Positions 44,352-56,135 of a stretch of 64,000 nucleotides of DNA are shown here, piece after piece. The notes under the pieces were generated by a model, which was not told the DNA's origin, did not search any database, and worked only from the letters and a program-made list of their open reading frames with translations. Position numbers and translations under genes: made by a program. Within the stretch, counting starts at the first letter, position 1; every line of letters starts with the position of its first letter. The DNA is from Alphaproteobacteria bacterium (lineage in GTDB: Bacteria; Pseudomonadota; Alphaproteobacteria; Sphingomonadales; Sphingomonadaceae), in the NCBI GenBank assembly GCA_018970445.1, contig JAGWWF010000019.1, positions 1 through 64,000 on the forward strand, read 5' to 3'.

Positions 44352-45266
44352 ATGTCGATCACACCAACCGTGAAAGCCATATTGGCCAATTACGAAAGCG
44401 ACAATCCCGGCACCAAGGCCAATCTGGCCCGCATGATGATGCAGGGCCGTCTGGGCGGCACCGGCAAGATGGTGATCCTGCCGGTTGACCAGGGCTTCGA
44501 ACATGGCCCGGCGCGCAGCTTTGCGCCCAATCCCGAAGCCTATGACCCGCACTATCATTATCAGCTCGCCATCGATGCGGGGCTTTCGGCCTATGCCGCG
44601 CCGCTGGGCATGCTGGAGGCCGGGGCCGACACGTTCGCCGGTCAGATCCCCACCATCCTCAAGGTCAACAGTTCCAACAGCTGGGCCACCGGCATCAACC
44701 AGGCCGTGACCGGCGGGGTGGATGATGCGCTGCGCCTGGGCTGTGCGGCCATCGGCTTCACCATCTATCCGGGTGCCGATGATGTGTTCGACATGATGGA
44801 GGAATTCCGCGAACTGGCCGCCGAAGCCAAGTCGGTCGGCCTCGCCACCGTGCTGTGGAGCTATCCGCGCGGCGGCAAGCTCTCCAAGGACGGCGAGCTG
44901 GCGCTGGATGTGGGCGCCTATGCCGCGCACATGGCGGCGCTGCTGGGCGCGCACATCATCAAGGTGAAGCTGCCGAGCGCGCATGTCGAGCAGAAGGATG
45001 CCGTGAAGGCCTATGAAGGCCATGACTGGTCCACCCAGGCCAGCCGTGTGAGCCATGTGGTGAAATCCTGCCTGAACGGCCGCCGGCTGGTGGTGTTTTC
45101 GGGCGGCGCCACCAAGGGCACCGATGCGGTGTTCGACGATGCGATCGCCATCCGCGACGGCGGCGGCAACGGCAGCATCATCGGCCGCAACACCTTCCAG
45201 CGCCCCCGCGCCGAAGCGCTGGCGATGCTGGACCGGATCGTGGACATCTATCTGGGCAAGGCGTGA
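44352..45266 (+). CDS. Fructose-bisphosphate aldolase, DhnA-type class I
   Basis: Cleaves fructose 1,6-bisphosphate by a Schiff-base mechanism. The protein is 304 residues, of the archaeal/DhnA-DeoC type (MVILPVDQGFEHGP, SYPRGGKLSKDGELALDVGAYAAHMAALLGAHIIKVKLPS, FSGGATKG, GRNTFQRPRAEAL). The Schiff-base lysine is probably in HIIKVKLPS. AAAGGGGAT precedes ATG 44352. Last gene of the tkt-gap-pgk-fba set; a REPIN-like repeat follows. Confidence 0.92.
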   Translation: MSITPTVKAILANYESDNPGTKANLARMMMQGRLGGTGKMVILPVDQGFEHGPARSFAPNPEAYDPHYHYQLAIDAGLSAYAAPLGMLEAGADTFAGQIPTILKVNSSNSWATGINQAVTGGVDDALRLGCAAIGFTIYPGADDVFDMMEEFRELAAEAKSVGLATVLWSYPRGGKLSKDGELALDVGAYAAHMAALLGAHIIKVKLPSAHVEQKDAVKAYEGHDWSTQASRVSHVVKSCLNGRRLVVFSGGATKGTDAVFDDAIAIRDGGGNGSIIGRNTFQRPRAEALAMLDRIVDIYLGKA

Positions 45267-45295
45267 TTTTCGCGCGGCTTTTCCCGCAAGGGACT

Positions 45296-45390
45296 CGTCA
45301 TGCTGGCGCAGGCCAGCATCCAGAGTGGTGCTGTTACCGGCTGCTGACGTCCTGGCTCCACCGTGGATGCTGGTCTGCGCCAGCATGACG
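45296..45390. repeat. REPIN-like inverted repeat, copy A
   Basis: Arms of 27 bases at 45296-45322 and 45364-45390 are reverse complements with one mismatch. Each arm contains a small hairpin, TGCTGG-CGCAGG-CCAGCA. The same arms occur at 52.8 kb and 53.3 kb. The right end lies directly upstream of thiE; its GACGAAGG provides the Shine-Dalgarno. Confidence 0.9.
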
Positions 45391-45398
45391 AAGGCTGT

Positions 45399-46088
45399 AT
45401 GATGACCGAAGACGACCTGATCCCGCTGCCGGCTGACTTCGCCGATCGCTTCGATGCCGAAGCCCGGCCGCCGTGCCAGCTTTATGTCGTGTCGCCGCCG
45501 CGCATCACCATCCCCGCCTTTGTCGACGGCCTGAAGGCGGCGCTGGATGGCGGGCCGGTGGCGGCGTTCCAGCTGCGGCTGAAGGACGTGGGCGACGATG
45601 ACGTGCTGCGCGCCTGCGAAGCCTTGCTGCCCATCTGCCGCGAACGCGATGTTGCCTTCATCCTGAACGATCGGGCCGACCTGGCAGCGAAGGCCGGCGC
45701 CGATGGCGTGCATCTGGGGCAGGGCGATGGCGACATCGCGCAGGCCCGCGCCCTGTTGGGCCATGACGCCCAGATCGGCCGCACCTGCCACGACAGCCGG
45801 CATCTGGCCATGGAGGCCGGCGAGCAGGGTGCCGATTATGTCGCGTTCGGGGCCTTTTACGACACCACCACCAAGCCCAGCCATTATCGCCCGCAGCCGG
45901 ACATATTGGGCTGGTGGACAACGCTGAGCCAGATCCCCTGTGTCGCCATTGGCGGCATCTTCCCGCACAACGCCGCGCCGCTGGTGGCGGCCGGGGCGGA
46001 TTTCATCGCGGTGGTGCGCGCCGTGTGGGATCATGCCGGCGGGCCGGGGGCGGGGGTTGCCGCGTTTGGCGAGGTGCTGGGCTGGTAG
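45399..46088 (+). CDS. thiE: Thiamine-phosphate synthase
   Basis: Joins the pyrimidine and thiazole moieties to thiamine phosphate. 229 residues, TIM barrel: AAFQLRLKDV, FILNDRADLAAKAGADGVHLGQGDGDI, IGRTCHDSRHLAMEAGEQGADYVAFGAFYDTTTKP (the usual GPI/FxT-TK loop varied) and VAIGGIFPHNAAPLVAAGADFIAVVRAVW. Start is ATG 45399 or 45402. Its product feeds transketolase upstream. Confidence 0.88.
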   Translation: MMTEDDLIPLPADFADRFDAEARPPCQLYVVSPPRITIPAFVDGLKAALDGGPVAAFQLRLKDVGDDDVLRACEALLPICRERDVAFILNDRADLAAKAGADGVHLGQGDGDIAQARALLGHDAQIGRTCHDSRHLAMEAGEQGADYVAFGAFYDTTTKPSHYRPQPDILGWWTTLSQIPCVAIGGIFPHNAAPLVAAGADFIAVVRAVWDHAGGPGAGVAAFGEVLGW

Positions 46089-46197
46089 GGTGGTTGCCGC
46101 CGCCGTCCGCATCCGCTAAGGCCCCGCCCGTTCAATTCCCGCTCTTTCGCATCCCTGTATCCCCGTCACGGCCCTGCTGGCCGCAAGGACTTGCCCC

Positions 46198-46995
46198 ATG
46201 GTTGCCCATTCATCGCTGATCACCGTCATGGAAAAGGCGGCGCGCAAGGCGTCGCCCAAGCTGCGCCGCGATTTCGGGGAAGTGGATGCGTTGCAGGTCA
46301 GCCGCAAGGGCCCGGCCGATTTCGTTTCCAATGCCGACAAGGCCGCCGAAGCCGCCATCGTGGAGGTGCTGCGCCACGCCCGGCCGGATTGGGGCCTGGT
46401 GCTGGAAGAAGGCGGCACCATCACGGGGGCGGATGACCGCTGCCGCTGGATCGTCGATCCGCTGGATGGCACCTCCAACTTCCTGCACGGCATTCCGCAT
46501 TTTGCCATTTCCATCGCCGCCGAAGTGGATGGCGAGATCGTTTCCGGCCTGATCCACCAGCCGTTGACGGGGGAAAGCTACTGGGCGGAAAAAGGCCGTG
46601 GCGCCTGGCTTTCGGATCGGCGGCTGCGCGTGTCGGGCCGGCGCGAGCTGAACGATTGCCTGATCGCCACCGGCATTCCCTATCAGGGCCACGGCAACCG
46701 GGCGCAGTTTTCCACCATCCTGGATGCGGTGATGCCGGAAGTGGCCGGCGTGCGCCGCTTTGGCGCGGCCAGCCTGGATCTGGCCTGGGTGGCGGCCGGG
46801 CGTTTCGATGGCTTCTGGGAAACCGGCCTGTCCTATTGGGACATTGCCGCTGGCATGCTGCTGATCCGCGAAGCCGGCGGCTTCGTTTCGGATTTCCGCG
46901 GCCAGCAGGAGATGGTGGACCGGCGCGAGATCGTCGCCGGCAACCAGTCCATCCAGTCGCGCCTGCACAAGCTGGTGGCGGGCGCCCTGCGCTGA
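46198..46995 (+). CDS. suhB: Inositol-1-monophosphatase family protein
   Basis: A Mg-dependent sugar/inositol phosphatase of 265 residues. Metal ligands are in VLEEGG, DPLDGTSNFLHGIPHFAISIA and YWDIAAGMLLIREAGG. KGPADFVSNADKAAEAAIVEVL is typical of SuhB. In many bacteria SuhB also acts on rRNA transcription; whether that holds here is unknown. A 109-base gap to thiE leaves room for its own promoter. Confidence 0.92.
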   Translation: MVAHSSLITVMEKAARKASPKLRRDFGEVDALQVSRKGPADFVSNADKAAEAAIVEVLRHARPDWGLVLEEGGTITGADDRCRWIVDPLDGTSNFLHGIPHFAISIAAEVDGEIVSGLIHQPLTGESYWAEKGRGAWLSDRRLRVSGRRELNDCLIATGIPYQGHGNRAQFSTILDAVMPEVAGVRRFGAASLDLAWVAAGRFDGFWETGLSYWDIAAGMLLIREAGGFVSDFRGQQEMVDRREIVAGNQSIQSRLHKLVAGALR

Positions 46996-47147
46996 GGCGG
47001 GTGCCGGCCGATTGCACCGGGGCGGTGGCGATACGGCCGGAAATCATGACAAATTGTCGCATTTTTTGGGCTTGAGAGGTTGCCCCTGCCGGCCGGGGCG
47101 GCTAATCATGGTGCATCGCAACAGGCAAGTGAAGGCGCACCCAGGCC

Positions 47148-47525
47148 ATGTCGGCCATCGCATCAGATTATTTGCCGGTGCTGCTGTTTCTGGCAGTGGG
47201 CATCGCCTTTGCGCTGATCTTCGTCAGCGCGCCCATCGCCGTGTCGGCGCTCACCGGCACGGCCAAGCCGGAAGCGGTGAAACTGTCGGAATATGAAAGC
47301 GGCTTCCCCGCCTTTTCCGACGCCCGCGCCAAATTTGATGTGCAATTCTATCTGGTTGCCATCCTGTTCATCGTGTTCGATCTGGAAGCGGCCTTCCTGT
47401 TCCCCTGGGCGGTGTCGCTGCATTGGGGCGGCGAAAGCGCCTGGTGGGCGATGATGGAATTCTTGGGCGAACTGGCCATCGGCCTGGTCTATGCCTGGAA
47501 AGTGGGAGCATTGGAGTGGGAGTGA
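47148..47525 (+). CDS. nuoA: NADH-quinone oxidoreductase subunit A
   Basis: Membrane subunit of complex I, 125 residues with three helices (about 8-28, 65-87, 94-115). [42 protein letters not shown] is the family signature. First gene of the nuo run; the 152 bases upstream hold the promoter, in which no clear sigma70 pair was found. The stop overlaps nuoB (GTGA). Confidence 0.95.
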
Positions 47526-48067
47526 TCGTGCCTCAGGATGGCACCGGCGCCATTGCGCTGCCGGAAACCAACCGCGACCTGTTTCTGACCGATGTCTCCC
47601 AGGAAGTGGCGGACAAGGGCTTTCTGGTCACCTCGACCGAGGATCTGTTCCACTGGGCCCGCACCGGCAGCCTGTGGTGGATGACGTTCGGCCTGGCCTG
47701 TTGCGCCGTGGAGATGATGCACACCAACATGCCGCGGTACGACATGGAGCGGTTTGGCATCGCGCCGCGCGCGTCCCCGCGCCAATCCGATGTGATGATC
47801 GTGGCCGGCACGCTGTGCAACAAGATGGCCCCGGCGCTGCGCCGCGTGTACGACCAGATGGCCGAGCCGCGCTATGTCATTTCCATGGGCAGCTGCGCCA
47901 ATGGCGGCGGCTATTATCACTACAGCTATTCGGTGGTGCGCGGCTGTGACCGGATCGTGCCGGTGGACATTTATGTGCCCGGCTGCCCGCCCACCGCCGA
48001 AGCGCTGCTGTACGGCATCCTGGCCCTCCAGCGGAAAATCCGCCGGGTGGGCGTGTTCGAGCGATAA
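47522..48067 (+). CDS. nuoB: NADH-quinone oxidoreductase subunit B
   Basis: Peripheral subunit carrying cluster N2, next to the quinone site. 181 residues; the four ligands are in [11 protein letters not shown] (adjacent cysteines), [10 protein letters not shown] and [17 protein letters not shown] 47522 overlaps the nuoA stop and has GGAG ahead; GTG 47528 is also possible. nuoC follows after 3 bases. Confidence 0.95.
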
Positions 48068-48070
48068 GCC

Positions 48071-48718
48071 ATGACCATCATTGCGCCTGAACTGGGCACG
48101 CACAGCTGGCCGGTGATGGGCCGGCACCCCGATCTGCACGGCCGGCTGGCCGCCGTGCTGGGCGATGCGCTGATCGCCATCGCCGATCATGCAGGCGAAA
48201 CCAGCGTGACCTTGGCGCGCGACGCGCTGGTGGATTGTGTGGTCGCCCTGCGCGATGCGCCCGATCTGCGCTTCAACCAGCTCACCGACATTTGCGGCGC
48301 GGATTATCCGGATCGGGCCGAGCGGTTCGAGGTGGTGGTGCAGCTGCTGTCGATGGCGCACAACCTGCGCCTGCGGGTGAAGGTGGCCACCGATGGCGCG
48401 GCCCCCGTGCCCAGCCTGGTGGGCGTGTTTGCCAATGCCGGCTGGTATGAGCGTGAGACCTGGGATTGTTATGGCGTGATGTTCGCCGGCAACCCCGACA
48501 TGCGCCGCATCCTGACCGACTATGGCTTTGAAGGCCATCCGTTCCGCAAGGATTTCCCGCTCACTGGCCATGTCGAGCTGCGCTGGTCGGAAGAGCACAA
48601 GCGCGTGGTGTATGAACCGGTGCGGCTGGCGCAGGATTTCCGCAGCTTTGATTTCCTGTCCCCCTGGGAAGGCACGGATTATGTGCTGCCCGGTGACGAG
48701 AAGGCGGGTGTGAAATGA
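48071..48718 (+). CDS. nuoC: NADH-quinone oxidoreductase subunit C
   Basis: Peripheral 30-kDa subunit, 215 residues. [74 protein letters not shown] is the family core, and the end [21 protein letters not shown] is typical. nuoC and nuoD are separate here, as in most alphaproteobacteria, not fused as in E. coli. Confidence 0.95.
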
Positions 48719-48727
48719 GCAGCAGCC

Positions 48728-49972
48728 ATGAGTAGTTTGGGCAATGCCGGTGCCGCCTGGACGGCGGCAGACACGATGGACGTGCTGCCGGCGAAGGACG
48801 GCAACGAGATCCAGAATTACATGATCAATTTCGGGCCCCAGCACCCGGCGGCGCACGGCGTGCTGCGGCTGGTGATGGAGCTGGACGGCGAGATCATCGA
48901 ACGCTGCGATCCGCATATCGGCCTGCTGCACCGCGGCACCGAAAAGCTGATCGAATACAAGACCTATCTGCAGGCGCTGCCCTATATGGACCGCCTGGAT
49001 TATGTCTCCCCGATGTGCATGGAGCACAGCTATGTGCTCGCCATCGAGAAACTGGCCGGCATCGAGGTGCCGCTGCGCGCCAAATATATCCGCACCATGT
49101 TTGCGGAAATCACCCGCATCCTGAACCATATCCTGAACACCACGGCGCACGCGATGGACGTGGGCGCGATGACGCCGATGCTGTGGCTGTTCGAGGAACG
49201 CGAAAAGCTGATGGAGTTCTACGAGCGGGTGTCGGGCGCGCGCTTCCACGCTGCCTGGTTCCGCCCCGGCGGCGTGCACCAGGATCTGCCGGCCGGGATG
49301 CTCGATGATATAGGCCGCTGGTGCGAAGGCTTCCCGCGCCTGCTCGATGAATTCCAGGGCCTGGTGGCCGACAATCGCATCTTCAAGCAGCGCAATGTCG
49401 ATATCGGGGTGATTTCCAAGGAGGATGCGATTCTGTGGGGCTTCACCGGCCCGTGCATCCGCGCCAGCGGCGTGGCCTGGGATCTGCGGAAAAGCCAGCC
49501 CTATGACGCCTATCATCTGGTCGATTTCAACGTGCCGGTTTCGAACGACGGCGATTGTTATGCCCGTTTCATGGTGCGCATGGAGGAAATGCGCGAAAGC
49601 GTGAAGATCATCCAGCAGTGCGTGCGCGACATGCCGGCGGGCGCCCACATCACCGACAACCGCAAGGTGGCGCCGCCGTCGCGCCGCGAGATGAAGCGGT
49701 CGATGGAAGCGCTGATCCATCATTTCAAACTGTATACCGAAGGCCTGCACGTGCCGGCCGGCGAAGCCTATGTCGCCACCGAAAGCCCCAAGGGCGAGTT
49801 CGGCATCTACATGGTGGCCGATGGCACCAACAAGCCATGGCGCTGCCACATCCGCGCCACCGGCATGGCGCATCTGCAGGCGATGGATTTCCTGTGCAAG
49901 GGCCATCTGCTGGCCGATGCGCCGGCGGTGCTGGGCAGCCTGGACATCGTGTTCGGCGAGGTGGACCGGTGA
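48728..49972 (+). CDS. nuoD: NADH-quinone oxidoreductase subunit D
   Basis: The 49-kDa subunit, 414 residues, forming the quinone pocket with Nuo[65 protein letters not shown] and the C-terminal [29 protein letters not shown] are hallmarks. The stop overlaps the small gene that follows (GTGA). Confidence 0.96.
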
Positions 49973-50139
49973 AGCGCGGCGCGACCTTCTGGGCCATGGC
50001 GCTTGGCGGCCCGGCTGCGATCGCCGCGGCGGCCTTTGCCGTGGGCCTGTCCGGCGGCAACGGCATGCTGGTCGTGGCCGCAGCGGCCGGCCTGTGGACG
50101 GCGGTGTTCGTCGCCTGGGCGAAAAGGCAGGGCCAATGA
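49969..50139 (+). CDS. Small membrane protein inside the nuo operon
   Basis: A 56-residue protein with two hydrophobic segments (about 7-26 and 30-48) and a basic end WAKRQGQ. GTG 49969 overlaps the nuoD stop by 4 bases and the stop overlaps the next ATG, so it is locked into the operon. No family recognised; an accessory or assembly role is only a guess. Confidence 0.72.
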
Positions 50140-50468
50140 GCCGGCTGGCCATCGCACAGGCGATGATCGCGCATTACAACGCGCAGGATGCCGATGCCTA
50201 TGTCGCGCTGATGACCGATGATGCGGTGGAGGCCGGCTATCGCGGCGCGGTTCTGCGCGATGGCAGGGAAGGCGTGCGCGCCGGCCTGAAAGCGATGTTT
50301 GCCCAGTTCCCCGAAAACCGCGCCGAGATCATCACCGGATACGAGCTGGGGCCGTTTGCCGTGCTGCACGAGAAGGTGTGGCGCACGAACGACGGCGAAC
50401 CGTTCGAGGTGATGAGCGTTTACAGTTTCGACGGCGACCTGTGCAGCCGCGTGGAGTTCATCCGGTGA
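50136..50468 (+). CDS. NTF2-like (SnoaL-type) protein inside the nuo operon
   Basis: A 110-residue cone-fold protein: AQAMIAHYNAQDADAYVALMTDDAV, GREGVRAGLKAMFAQFPENRAEI and VMSVYSFDGDLCSRVEFIR match the nuclear transport factor 2/SnoaL pattern. Ligand unknown. Both ends overlap the neighbouring genes by 4 bases. Confidence 0.8.
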   Translation: MSRLAIAQAMIAHYNAQDADAYVALMTDDAVEAGYRGAVLRDGREGVRAGLKAMFAQFPENRAEIITGYELGPFAVLHEKVWRTNDGEPFEVMSVYSFDGDLCSRVEFIR

Positions 50469-51064
50469 GCGATTTTTCCGATTTTGCCTGGACCGCCGAA
50501 AATGCCGCCGAAGCGCAGCGGCTGATCGGCCTGTATCCCCCCGGCCGGCAAGCGAGCGCGGTGATGCCGCTGTTGTGGCTGGCGCAATATCAGATGCGCG
50601 ATGAAACCGGCGTGGCCTGGCTGCCGGTGCCGGTGATCGAGTATGTCGCGAACCAGATCGGCATGCCCTATATCCGCGCCTACGAAGTGGCCAGCTTCTA
50701 CACCATGTACAATCTCAAGCCGATCGGCCGCTATCATGTGCAGCTGTGCGGCACCACGCCGTGCCTGCTGCGCGGCAGCGACGAGATCATGAAAGCTTGT
50801 CATGACAAGGGCCTGAAGAAGGGTGCCACCACCGCTGATGGCCTGTTCACCCTCACCGAGGTGGAATGCCTGGGCGCCTGCGCCAATGCGCCGATGGTGC
50901 AGATCAACGATCACAATTATGAAGACCTGACCTATGCGACGATGCGTTCGATCCTGGACGCGCTGGAACGCGGCGAAACGCCGGCAACTGGCAGCCAGAT
51001 CGGCCGCACCGCCTCGTGCCCCGAAGGCGGTGCGACAACGCTGAAGGAGATGGTTGGTGGCTGA
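50465..51064 (+). CDS. nuoE: NADH-quinone oxidoreductase subunit E
   Basis: The 24-kDa subunit with the [2Fe-2S] cluster N1a. 199 residues; ligands in LCGTTPCLLRGS and VECLGACANAPMVQIND. IEYVANQIGMPYIRAYEVASFYTMYNLKPIGRYHVQ is conserved. GTG 50465 overlaps the upstream stop; a longer in-frame start at 50378 lies in the NTF2-like gene. Confidence 0.95.
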   Translation: MSDFSDFAWTAENAAEAQRLIGLYPPGRQASAVMPLLWLAQYQMRDETGVAWLPVPVIEYVANQIGMPYIRAYEVASFYTMYNLKPIGRYHVQLCGTTPCLLRGSDEIMKACHDKGLKKGATTADGLFTLTEVECLGACANAPMVQINDHNYEDLTYATMRSILDALERGETPATGSQIGRTASCPEGGATTLKEMVGG

Positions 51065-51308
51065 ACAGGAAATCCTGAACTTCATCGGCGAGCAGTTCCG
51101 GCGGCTGAACACCCGCTTTGACAAGCTGGAGATGGACATCGGCGAAATCAAATCCCGGCTGATTGTGCTGGAAGAAGGCCAGGCTTCAATGTCGGCCCGT
51201 ATCGCCACGGTTGAAGTCAGCATGGCCGGCATGAACAAGCGTATGGATCGGGTCGACAACCGGCTGGACCGGATAGAACGCAGGCTTGATCTGGTGGAGC
51301 AGCATTGA
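51057..51308 (+). CDS. Small coiled-coil protein inside the nuo operon
   Basis: About 83 residues, almost all coiled coil: LNFIGEQFRRLNTRFDKLEMDIGEIKSRLIVLEE and MNKRMDRVDNRLDRIERRLDLVEQ show heptads with a short break between. GTG 51057 has AAGGAG seven bases upstream; TTG 51054 is an alternative. It overlaps the nuoE end and shares a base with the next gene's ATG. Function unknown. Confidence 0.72.
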   Translation: MAEQEILNFIGEQFRRLNTRFDKLEMDIGEIKSRLIVLEEGQASMSARIATVEVSMAGMNKRMDRVDNRLDRIERRLDLVEQH

Positions 51309-51484
51309 TGGTGAAGCTGCTGCTTGGTTTCGCGTTCGTGCTGATGCTGGCTTCGATCGGCCTGTTGATCTTTGGCATCATGAACAAGACGCCGATGATC
51401 CCCATCGCCATGGCGCTGCTGGTCACCGGCATTTCGCTGCTCACCGTGGCCAACGCCCAGAACGCCAAGAACAAGAAGAAGTGA
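51308..51484 (+). CDS. 58-residue membrane protein inside the nuo operon
   Basis: A very short gene: MVKLLLGFAFVLMLASIGLL... with two hydrophobic helices (about 3-25 and 30-48) and a lysine-rich tail (KNKKK). Its ATG overlaps the preceding stop (TGATG), and nuoF follows after 6 bases. Easily missed by gene callers with a 60-residue cut-off. Function unknown. Confidence 0.7.
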   Translation: MVKLLLGFAFVLMLASIGLLIFGIMNKTPMIPIAMALLVTGISLLTVANAQNAKNKKK

Positions 51485-51490
51485 ACCGCC

Positions 51491-52798
51491 ATGCTGGCTG
51501 ACAAGGACCGCATCTTCACCAACCTCTATGGCTTCCAGCCGTGGAATCTGGACGCCGCGCGCACGCGCGGCGATTGGGCCGACACCAAGGAACTGATGAG
51601 CGTTGGGCCCGATGCGGTGATCGACGCCGTCAAGGCCAGTGGCCTGCGCGGGCGCGGCGGCGCAGGCTTTCCCACTGGCATGAAGTGGAGCTTCATGCCC
51701 AAGACGCCGAACCCGGACCGGCCCAGCTATCTGGTCGTGAACGCCGACGAATCCGAACCCGGCAGCTGCAAGGATCGCGAGATCATCCGCCATGATCCGC
51801 ACAAGCTGATCGAAGGCGCGCTGATCGCCGGCTTTGCCATGCGCGCCCGCGCCGCCTTCATCTATATCCGCGGCGAATATATTGCCGAGGCCAGGGTGCT
51901 GATGGCCGCCGTTGAGGAGGCTTATGCCGCCGGCCTGATCGGCAGGAATGCCTGTGGCACCGGCTATGATTTCGATGTCGTCGTGCATCGGGGTGGTGGG
52001 GCCTATATCTGCGGCGAAGAAACCGCGATGATCGAAAGCCTGGAAGGCAAGAAGGGCCAGCCGCGCCTGAAACCGCCGTTCCCGGCCGGCGCCGGCCTCT
52101 ATGGCAATCCCACCACGGTGAACAATGTCGAATCCATCGCCGTGGTGCCGACCATCCTGCGCCGCGGCCCCGAATGGTTCGCCGCCATCGGCCGGCCCAA
52201 GAATGAAGGCACCAAGCTGTTCCAGATTTCCGGCCATGTGAACCGGCCGTGCGTGGTGGAAGAGGCGATGAGCATCCCCTTCCGCCAGCTGATCGATGAA
52301 CATTGCGGTGGCATCAGGGGCGGGTGGGACAATCTGCTGGCCGTCATCCCCGGCGGTTCATCGGTGCCGCTGGTGCCGGCGCACCAGATCATTGATTGCC
52401 CGATGGATTTCGATGCCCTGCGCGATCTGAAATCCGGCCTGGGCACCGCCGCCATCATCGTGATGGACAAGAGCACCGACATCGTGCGGGCGATCGCGCG
52501 GCTGAGTTATTTCTACAAGCATGAAAGCTGCGGCCAGTGCACGCCGTGCCGTGAGGGCACGGGCTGGATGTGGCGGGTGATGGAACGGCTGGTGACCGGC
52601 GATGCCGAGGCCCACGAGATCGACATGCTGCTGGAGGTGACCACCCAGGTGGAAGGCCACACCATCTGCGCCCTGGGCGACGCGGCGGCCTGGCCGATCC
52701 AGGGCCTGATCCGCCATTTCCGCCCGGAGATCGAGGCGCGGATCGCGCGGCGCAAGGGCTTTGTGCAGGTGCCTGGGCTGGCCGTGGCGGCGGAGTAG
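51491..52798 (+). CDS. nuoF: NADH-quinone oxidoreductase subunit F
   Basis: The NADH-binding 51-kDa subunit, 435 residues, with FMN and cluster N3. [20 protein letters not shown] and [15 protein letters not shown] form the NADH/FMN site; [19 protein letters not shown] and the later [15 protein letters not shown] give the four cluster ligands. This is the last complex I gene here: nuoG does not follow. A REPIN-like repeat begins 9 bases after the stop. Confidence 0.96.
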
Positions 52799-52807
52799 CA
52801 TTTCACT

Positions 52808-52904
52808 GTCATGCTGACGAAGGCCAGCATCCACGGTGGAGAGGGTGTTCGTTCACTCGCCATGGGTGCAGGTGGCGCGTTGAATGCTGTCCTGCGCCAG
52901 CATG
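52808..52904. repeat. REPIN-like inverted repeat, copy B (diverged)
   Basis: Left arm from 52808 (GTCATGCTGACGAAGGCCAG...) and right arm 52881-52904 match the copy A/C arms with several substitutions. The right arm ends 18 bases before the GIY-YIG start. It lies directly after nuoF. Confidence 0.82.
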
Positions 52905-52922
52905 GCAGGGGAAGGCTGGAAC

Positions 52923-53231
52923 ATGGCCAAACCGGGTTGGGTCTATATGATGGCCAGCCAACCACGCGGCACGCTGTATCTGGGCGTGACACCAAACCTG
53001 ATCAACCGCGTGCAGCAGCACCGCACCGGCCATTTCGAAGGCTTCACCGCTCGCTATGGCGTGAAGCGGATCGTGTGGAACGAGCATCATGCAGACATCG
53101 CCGATGCCATTGCGCGCGAGAAGGCGATGAAATTCTGGAAGCGGGACTGGAAGATCAGCCTGATTGAAGAGCTCAAGCCGCGTTGGGATGATCTGGCGGT
53201 TGGCTGGGGGTTTCCGCCTGTGGGCGATTGA
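52923..53231 (+). CDS. GIY-YIG nuclease-family protein
   Basis: A 102-residue single-domain protein of the YhbQ/UPF0213-like GIY-YIG group: GWVYMMASQPRGTLYLGVTPNLINRVQQHRTGHFEGFTARYGVKRIVWNEHHADIADAIAREKAMKFWKRDWKISLIEE. The first motif reads WVY...LYLGV; Arg in NLINRVQQH and Glu in AREKAMK are the expected catalytic residues. ATG 52923 has GGAAGG upstream; longer starts run into the repeat. It stands between two REPIN-like repeats, separate from its neighbours' functions. Confidence 0.88.
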   Translation: MAKPGWVYMMASQPRGTLYLGVTPNLINRVQQHRTGHFEGFTARYGVKRIVWNEHHADIADAIAREKAMKFWKRDWKISLIEELKPRWDDLAVGWGFPPVGD

Positions 53232-53244
53232 GTGCGTCCTCCGT

Positions 53245-53348
53245 CCTGTCATGCTGGCGCAGGCCAGCATCCACGGTGGGAATGGTGCATATCATGCAAC
53301 ATGGGCGCGGGGGGCACGGTGGATGCTGGCCTGCGCCAGCATGACAGG
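53245..53348. repeat. REPIN-like inverted repeat, copy C (perfect)
   Basis: Two perfectly complementary 30-base arms at 53245-53274 and 53319-53348 around a 44-base spacer. Each arm holds the TGCTGG-CGCAGG-CCAGCA hairpin. It begins 14 bases after the GIY-YIG stop; gyrA starts 100 bases further on. Being the cleanest copy, it looks the most recent. Confidence 0.93.
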
Positions 53349-53447
53349 CGAGGGGTGGAAAAACAGCCTTTCCACTGGCCTTTTCCTGCCGTTTCCCCTA
53401 ATCCGGTCACGCGTTTGCAACATTCAATATTGAGCCAATAAAAGCCC

Positions 53448-56135
<2,688 letters not shown>

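Follow-up and report, generated by a model that had tools for sequence, protein, structure and literature searches.

A small GIY-YIG nuclease gene between CGTC-type REP dimers: covariation of protein and hairpin suggests a cognate pair

Introduction

Why does the gene of a small nuclease lie between two copies of a repeat, and does its product recognise the repeat that surrounds it? This question was raised by a locus in the window, by which the whole stretch of 64,000 nucleotides analysed here is meant. A first-pass annotation of the window described a GIY-YIG gene between two inverted hairpin dimers, and proposed that gene and repeats belong to an undescribed repeat family with the architecture of REPINs, driven by the nuclease in place of a RAYT transposase. 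Among known repeats, the CGTC-tagged REPs of Di Nocera 2013 are defined by their tag, a stem of 8-9 bp starting with AT, a loop of 4-5 nt, a CCA tail and an arrangement as inverted dimers (PMC3733652). In the available part of that survey, they are recorded from five phyla or more and from every alphaproteobacterial order examined in 2013, show no association with transposase genes and apparently have no dedicated transposase, and the question of what moves them is left open (PMC3733652).

Results

The nuclease gene and the dimers in the window

The three inverted hairpin dimers were recovered where the annotation had placed them (45296-45390, 52808-52904 and 53245-53348), and the gene between two of them proved to be a GIY-YIG gene with a product of 102 residues. 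The features of the locus are as follows.

45296-45390, no strand: third REP dimer, without nuclease; arms 45297-45322 (+) and 45364-45389 (-)
51491-52798, + strand: left neighbour, nuoF-like (name from ORF reading), the anchor for comparing the site in relatives
52807-52905, no strand: upstream CGTC-type REP dimer, worn; arms 52808-52833 (+) and 52881-52904 (-)
52923-53231, + strand: GIY-YIG nuclease gene (Ssn/UPF0213-like), 102 aa; residue 71 is F, residue 85 is K
53245-53348, no strand: downstream CGTC-type REP dimer, intact; arms 53248-53273 (+) and 53320-53345 (-)
53448-56135, + strand: right neighbour, parC/gyrA-like topoisomerase gene (name from ORF reading)

The product of the ORF at 52923-53231 scored 42.4 bits against PF01541 in a profile search (cut-off 22.6). 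The ORF is separated by 17 bases from the upstream dimer and by about 13 from the downstream dimer; a longer in-frame version (115 aa) has its start at 52884, within the upstream repeat. The AlphaFold model of the protein had a pLDDT of 92. Comparison among three orthologues gave dN/dS values of about 0.09-0.15 (about 0.11, 0.15 and 0.09), and the gene is under purifying selection. The nuclease positions were conserved among 107 homologues, with Y8 and Y19 in 106, R29 and H33 in 107 and E66 in 105. At position 85 (window 53175-53177), the window nuclease alone has K, and 106 of the 107 aligned homologues have N. The idea that N85K made the window enzyme dead was set aside, because the C-terminal Asn is also absent from the Slx1-like group of GIY-YIG proteins, as far as the available text describes that group (PMC1564403), and because dN/dS is low. 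With K85 and a worn upstream dimer, the window copy may nevertheless be declining.

Only one other PF01541 match was present in the 3.03-Mb assembly, in a 658-aa ORF of UvrC size. PADLOC gave zero matches for the window locus, and the four NCBIfam matches (E 0.002-0.35) were all far under the cut-off. Rfam in evalue mode over 45000-54000 gave four matches, all to microRNA families and all under the gathering score; the two on the downstream dimer were taken for inverted-repeat noise.

Each arm consists of GTC, a stem starting with AT, a 4-nt loop, the returning stem ending in AT, and CCA; the arm of the window reads C/TGTC-ATGCTGGC-GCAG-GCCAGCAT-CCA, with 2 mismatches in each arm of the upstream dimer. 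When folded as single-stranded DNA, the downstream dimer at 53245 (z -12.0) and the dimer at 45296 (z -9.7) were matched by 0 of 200 shuffles each, and the upstream dimer was unremarkable (z -1.9, equalled by 8 of 200 shuffles). The dimer at 45296-45390 sits between fructose-bisphosphate aldolase-like and thiE-like genes (names from ORF reading). The 24-base arm, with up to 3 mismatches allowed, had 9 copies in the 3.03-Mb assembly, 6 of them inside the window, and none in the control read backwards; the arms outside the window formed one dimer within ileS and one single arm. Given the five repeat sites of the genome, bracketing of a gene on both sides by chance was roughly estimated at ~1e-7 and occurred in 0 of 200000 simulations. 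The same genome (G000) also holds 25 arms of another CGTC-type stem, ATGCTGAACTTGTTTCAGCAT (C22:117311-117411, for example), which outnumber the arms of the window type; a PF01541 search of G000 found no GIY-YIG gene matching them.

Class of the repeats

The window repeats fit the CGTC-tagged REPs, as judged from their sequence and the available text of the 2013 survey, so the family is one already described (PMC3733652). The definition places an unpaired CGTC, or TGTC or CCTC, at one end, and the arms found by the strict scan start with CGTC or TGTC; the sixth window arm (52881-52904) is worn and stands apart from these. The stem, loop and tail of the definition are found in ATGCTGGC-GCAG-GCCAGCAT-CCA, and its dispersed inverted dimers in the three window dimers, the dimer in ileS and one single arm.

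The likeness to REPINs held for the inverted hairpin dimers and did not extend to tag and transposase: the tag is C/TGTC and not the GTAG of REPINs, and no RAYT accompanies it. As the annotation had said of the window, RAYT was absent, with 0 matches to PF01797 in a profile search of the whole assembly. Among the 24 genomes of the genus, a single one (G009) had a match. A RAYT or other transposase that moves the repeats and carries the nuclease gene as a passenger would account for the REPIN-like architecture and for the RAYT-family match in G009. However, PF01797, the one family covered by our transposase search, was found in 1 of 24 genomes and was missing from the arm-rich G010, G019, G008 and G003, and no case of CGTC repeats flanking a transposase gene is given in the survey's available part (PMC3733652). 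Covariation with the hairpin at a single residue, as seen for the nuclease (see below), would also be surprising in a passenger. We consider such a passenger highly improbable.

Association of nuclease and hairpin across homologous loci

Homologues were chosen by protein similarity alone. This gave 30 loci, which came from 25 of the 41 genomes searched, among them the genome of the window, and to these the best 80 of 573 loci from a named species collection were added. After removal of 3 duplicates from the 110 loci, 107 remained, one of which is the window locus itself. In a motif-free test, in which a hairpin in one 250-base flank had to recur in the other, a hairpin common to both flanks was found at 70 of the 107 loci (including the best 80 of 573) and at none of 534 shifted placements within these loci; 37 of the 107, with the same inclusion, had no shared hairpin. 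The annotation had suggested comparing repeats near GIY-YIG genes with those near control genes, and the enrichment was clear: a relaxed CGTC-type hairpin lay on both sides in 68 of 107 loci (including the best 80 of 573) compared with 2 of 300 control ORFs from the same loci. Within about 300 bases on at least one side, the corresponding counts were 89 of 107 (again including the best 80 of 573) and 34 of 300, for a relaxed motif that also matches by chance (83 times in reversed sequence, 354 in the real one). Among the best 80 of 573 loci of the named collection, a strict motif occurred near the gene in 46 and on both sides in 28; its density was 41x higher near the gene (106 in 49.5 kb) than far from it (29 in 559 kb), and it was found 0 times in the reversed sequence of these loci. 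No CGTC-type hairpin lay near the gene in 18 of the 107 loci (including the best 80 of 573), 6 of which were from Mesorhizobium, and several of the 18 carried a near-variant hairpin. The association spans classes and phyla. Chance proximity, or a mere preference of the repeats for gaps between genes, could be argued from the liking of REPs for intergenic space noted in the survey's available text (PMC3733652), but is refuted by the contrast between 2 of 300 control genes and 68 of 107 loci (including the best 80 of 573) together with the covariation of protein and hairpin, and we give it practically no weight.

On plasmid AZO_p3 of Azospirillum lipoferum 4B (L213), the GIY-YIG gene and its repeats lie between sufB and sufC, and on a Planktothrix agardhii plasmid (L224 1186-1470), a homologue without a hairpin nearby lies between an MmeI-type restriction enzyme and the DISARM gene drmA. 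In the open-licence literature, no paper was found that ties GIY-YIG genes to CGTC-type repeats.

Covariation of protein and hairpin

Protein identity and hairpin identity were correlated over 89 loci (r 0.30; at most 0.13 in 2000 permutations), and the correlation persisted among non-syntenic pairs from different genomes with less than 70% identity (r 0.215, permutation maximum 0.131). Relative to the nearest non-syntenic relative, hairpin identity was 0.79 where 0.57 was expected (permutation maximum 0.64). Six genomes yielded two fetched paralogues each. Their hairpins differed in four pairs (G019, G015, G036 and JAAFIS); the pair in G026, with proteins 92% identical, shared one hairpin, and the pair in G005 was unscored. 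The G019 paralogues, 54% identical, carry ATGCTGAACTTGTTTCAGCAT and ATGCCAGCGAAGGCTGGCAT, and each of these hairpins is that of the protein's nearest relatives elsewhere. Inheritance of whole loci does not explain the link, because only 10 of 62 pairs at 0.70-0.80 identity shared a neighbour gene when two ORFs per side were compared. By these comparisons, the hairpin follows the protein, not the genome or the locus.

For the analysis of a recognition code, the 18 of 107 rows without a CGTC-type hairpin and one unclassed row were dropped. The remaining loci fell into a class with a 4-nt loop of CGNA type (48 loci) and a class with a 5-nt loop of CTTG type (40 loci), assigned by a text pattern that misclassed at least L097, which was left uncorrected. 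Of all positions, residues 71, 73 and 75 shared the most information with the loop class; they are interleaved with K70, W72, R74, W76 and K77, which are nearly invariant. In the 4-nt class, residue 71 predicted stem pairs 5-6. Of the 24 loci with K71, 20 had CC; all 8 with E71 had CG, all 6 with F71 had TG, 5 of the 6 with A71 had CA and both with the rarer R71 had CC, while H and T occurred once each. By the record labels, the E71 group comprised Alpha- and Betaproteobacteria and the K71 group several phyla. Between proteins less than 60% identical, the same stem pairs 5-6 were found in 72% of pairs that shared residue 71 and in 7% of those that did not, compared with 24% and 0% for the next position. 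Position 71 was found by scanning, for which the shuffle maximum over all positions accounts. When the rows were thinned to less than 68% identity, residue 71 stood about twofold above that maximum in 400 shuffles; with thinning to less than 62% (15-18 rows), it was still the top position but no more than level with the shuffle maximum (0.67-0.76 versus 0.72-0.73). The code was weaker in the 5-nt class, where position 71 was not at the top of the list: R71 with H73 went with CTGA in 9 of 10, R71 with Y73 with CTCG in 4 of 4, and R71 alone was mixed. In the AlphaFold model, residues 70-73 lie in the turn that connects the E66 helix to the one that follows. On a tree built without residues 66-80, the loop class changed 21 times (shuffled mean 29.2, minimum 22). 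A test of independent pairs on the protein tree was without power because it found only two supported pairs.

Prediction on held-out loci

The rule was fixed before it was applied to 31 held-out loci, of which 13 came from genomes of relatives, 15 from a plasmid collection (34 records found and 15 fetched, one of them at two places) and 3 (L227-L229) were added after the first 28 had been scored. Sixteen of the 31 combined a prediction with a hairpin, and the loop class was called correctly in all 16. The stem was right in 11 of the 12 with a stem prediction, the miss being L199 (K71 with CG). Residue 71 was K, R or H in all scored rows and never E, F or A. Several scored proteins are close to a training protein or to one another, L216, L219, L220 and L222 being 72-76% identical to a training protein, and L220/L222 and L227/L228 forming close pairs within the set. 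A hairpin near the gene was missing in 13 of the 31, including all five weak homologues L207-L211, which made the predictions for L202, L205, L210, L217, L218 and L221 unscorable; L203, with a broken gene, and L206 had no readable motif. Scans of viral contigs with an E71 protein, the window protein (F71) and an A71 protein returned 2, 0 and 0 loci, both of those found being K71; a phage search for held-out E71, F71 and A71 loci gave none, and a plasmid search for them gave the same organisms as in the earlier set.

Hairpins shared by the two flanks, a hairpin that tracks the protein, the correspondence at residue 71 and the held-out prediction together make it well supported that nuclease and repeat are a cognate pair. 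As the best explanation of the locus, we propose that the small GIY-YIG nuclease recognises the CGTC-tagged REP hairpin beside it, with a probability of about 0.7.

Movement of the repeats and states of the sites

Comparison with relatives showed that repeats have moved in this lineage. The dimer within ileS lies in frame in G000 (G000:C32:109229-109311; L012 2230-2312) and was absent from the 10 other genomes among the 11 that were readable (14 of 22 matching loci analysed, 3 unparsed). Between fba and thiE, a dimer or half-dimer was present in 5 of the 12 genomes read, out of 24 with a match (G000, G010, G005, G014 and G009), and absent in 7. At the nuoF-parC site, read in 22 genomes including the window's own, repeat-gene-repeat was found in 3 (G000, G010 and G020, with a different right neighbour in G010), a solo dimer in 2 (G009 and G011), neither repeat nor gene in 4 (G022, G002, G004 and G013) and other sequence in 6, and 7 were uninformative. 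The gene might have been kept at this site in species without the repeats, a possibility the annotation had raised against its own proposal; all 3 genomes with the gene there have repeats on both sides.

In homing endonuclease systems, the gene lies within an intron or intein and thereby disrupts its own target. Spread of a homing-like kind, in which the nuclease cuts solo dimers and repair from a cassette copy installs repeat-gene-repeat with the repeats as homology, would suit the three states seen at nuoF-parC (no repeat, solo dimer and repeat-gene-repeat), and GIY-YIG domains are common in homing enzymes according to the available text of PMC1564403. Solo dimer and cassette alternate at the site with no direction given, however, and loss of the gene by recombination between the flanking repeats explains solo dimers equally well. 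Read by eye on a three-gene tree with some weak branches, the states of the site on the species tree can also be taken as one old insertion of the cassette with later losses. Homing-like spread is unlikely in our judgement.

Repeats without a cognate nuclease

Repeats were also found without a cognate gene. G018 contains 30 arms of one stem and G003 contains 23 arms of another, and neither genome has a PF01541 match other than UvrC. The 25 ATGCTGAACTTGTTTCAGCAT arms of G000 likewise have no nuclease of their own in that genome. Decay after gene loss is not visible in G018, because 23 of its 30 arms are perfect; some absences of the nuclease may be gaps, because the assemblies are fragmented. 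In a hand count of three stems in 24 genomes, all 9 cognate combinations and 16 of the 63 non-cognate ones had arms away from the gene (Fisher 2e-5), where cognate status was defined by the flanking arms, the genomes are related and the broken copy of G008 was counted as cognate. The idea that repeat number tracks the presence of the nuclease is thus only partly true, since the 16 of 63 non-cognate combinations also hold arms. The copy in question (L203, G008:C17) is a GIY-YIG gene beside ATGCTGGCGAACGCCAGCAT arms, apparently broken because it was matched in two overlapping pieces, and G008 holds 30 such arms at up to 2 mismatches. Repeats persist longer or spread further than the nuclease gene, and orphan repeats without nuclease count against the simple version in which the nuclease moves the repeats.

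These orphans fit another explanation, in which the repeats spread by separate means and merely mark sites: an Ssn-like single-strand nuclease would act on them in incoming or replicating DNA and limit or shape recombination nearby. The Ssn nuclease of Neisseria reportedly cleaves its target repeats in single-stranded form and influences natural transformation, and the N. gonorrhoeae homologue, which we take to be the published Ssn, lies among 16 arms of ATTCCCN8GGGAAT within 3.3 kb. Marking alone leaves unexplained why the gene is so frequently placed between repeat copies and why cassettes at unrelated places carry the same hairpin. We rate it as a serious contender, though at somewhat worse than even odds.

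Discussion

Co-occurrence of nuclease and hairpin, their covariation, the held-out prediction and past movement of the repeats in the lineage were computed directly; from these we infer hairpin binding, cleavage and a role of cleavage in spread. In the proposed cognate pair, recognition would probably take place through the stretch K70-x71-W72-x73-R74-x75-W76-K77, directly after the helix with the conserved E66, where residue 71 would read stem pairs 5-6 and residues 71, 73 and 75 would set the loop class. The nuclease would probably nick the hairpin when it is extruded or single-stranded, on the lagging strand or in DNA that has been taken up. Flanked by REP dimers, the gene may be maintained and disseminated as a cassette, and the dimers that stand alone would be its companions or remnants, much as REPINs are to RAYTs.

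That the nuclease moves the repeats is plausible. In the widest form of this idea, GIY-YIG nucleases would be the missing mobilisers of CGTC-tagged REPs in Proteobacteria and beyond, each nicking the hairpin read by its code, with repair copying the repeats and the gene they bracket, in analogy to REPIN and RAYT; we offer this tentatively and think it rather more doubtful than probable. If the cognate pair is real, the open question of what moves CGTC-tagged REPs becomes a simple test of binding and cleavage, and single residues can be used to predict the hairpin that a given enzyme reads. A one-domain hairpin nuclease with a readable code, if real, would also be a useful reagent. The observation is more general than the first-pass annotation of one locus could show. 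Its link between nuclease and repeats stood; its claim that the family is undescribed did not, as the repeats correspond to CGTC-tagged REPs in the available text of the survey (PMC3733652).

Comparison with known systems

The window repeats share with the CGTC-tagged REPs the C/TGTC tag, the 8-bp stem starting with AT, the 4-nt loop and the CCA tail, as well as inverted dimers, intragenic copies and an alphaproteobacterial range, as these are given in the available part of the survey (PMC3733652). Of the CGTC hosts named there, S. chlorophenolicum, A. lipoferum and Neisseria have hairpin-flanked homologues in our set (L109, L213 and L212), and N. aromaticivorans has a homologue without a hairpin nearby (L221). 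No dedicated enzyme is given for these REPs in that text, whereas in the present analysis a GIY-YIG nuclease travels with them (PMC3733652). With REPIN and RAYT, as described in the same text, the system shares two inverted hairpins, an enzyme gene between its repeats and many non-autonomous copies, but the GTAG tag and the Y1 transposase of REPINs are missing here and the window enzyme is a GIY-YIG nuclease (PMC3733652).

Among solved structures, the best sequence matches were UPF0213 or bacterial Slx1-like proteins (1zg2 and 1ywl), and the best fold matches to the window protein were 1zg2 and Slx1, none of them reaching E 0.001. As aligned, 1zg2 and 1ywl differ in lacking the K-x-W-x-R-x-W-K stretch.

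The N. gonorrhoeae homologue shares 53% identity with the window protein over 85 residues and 70% with L098, and has K71. Its surrounding arms are taken for dRS3-like elements by their sequence, and CGTC-1 elements of Neisseria are equated with dRS3 in the available text of the survey (PMC3733652). The N. gonorrhoeae records NZ_CP119140.1 and NZ_CP119142.1, of 2.17 Mb, are filed as plasmids and look like chromosomes. A 2025 study reportedly described this GIY-YIG family under the name Ssn, as site-specific single-strand nucleases whose target is repeated in Neisseria, so that GIY-YIG nucleases tied to a genomic repeat would already be published. The Ssn/NTS system reportedly has the same layout, a stand-alone GIY-YIG protein of ~100 aa beside a repeated palindrome, and both the homologous stand-alone domain and the cognate repeats around the gene are found in the window. 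The stem is ATTCCCGC with K71 there and ATGCTGGC with F71 in the window; Ssn is said to be defined by site-specific cleavage of single-stranded DNA. If the 2025 description is as reported, the window nuclease would be a member of Ssn with a different target.
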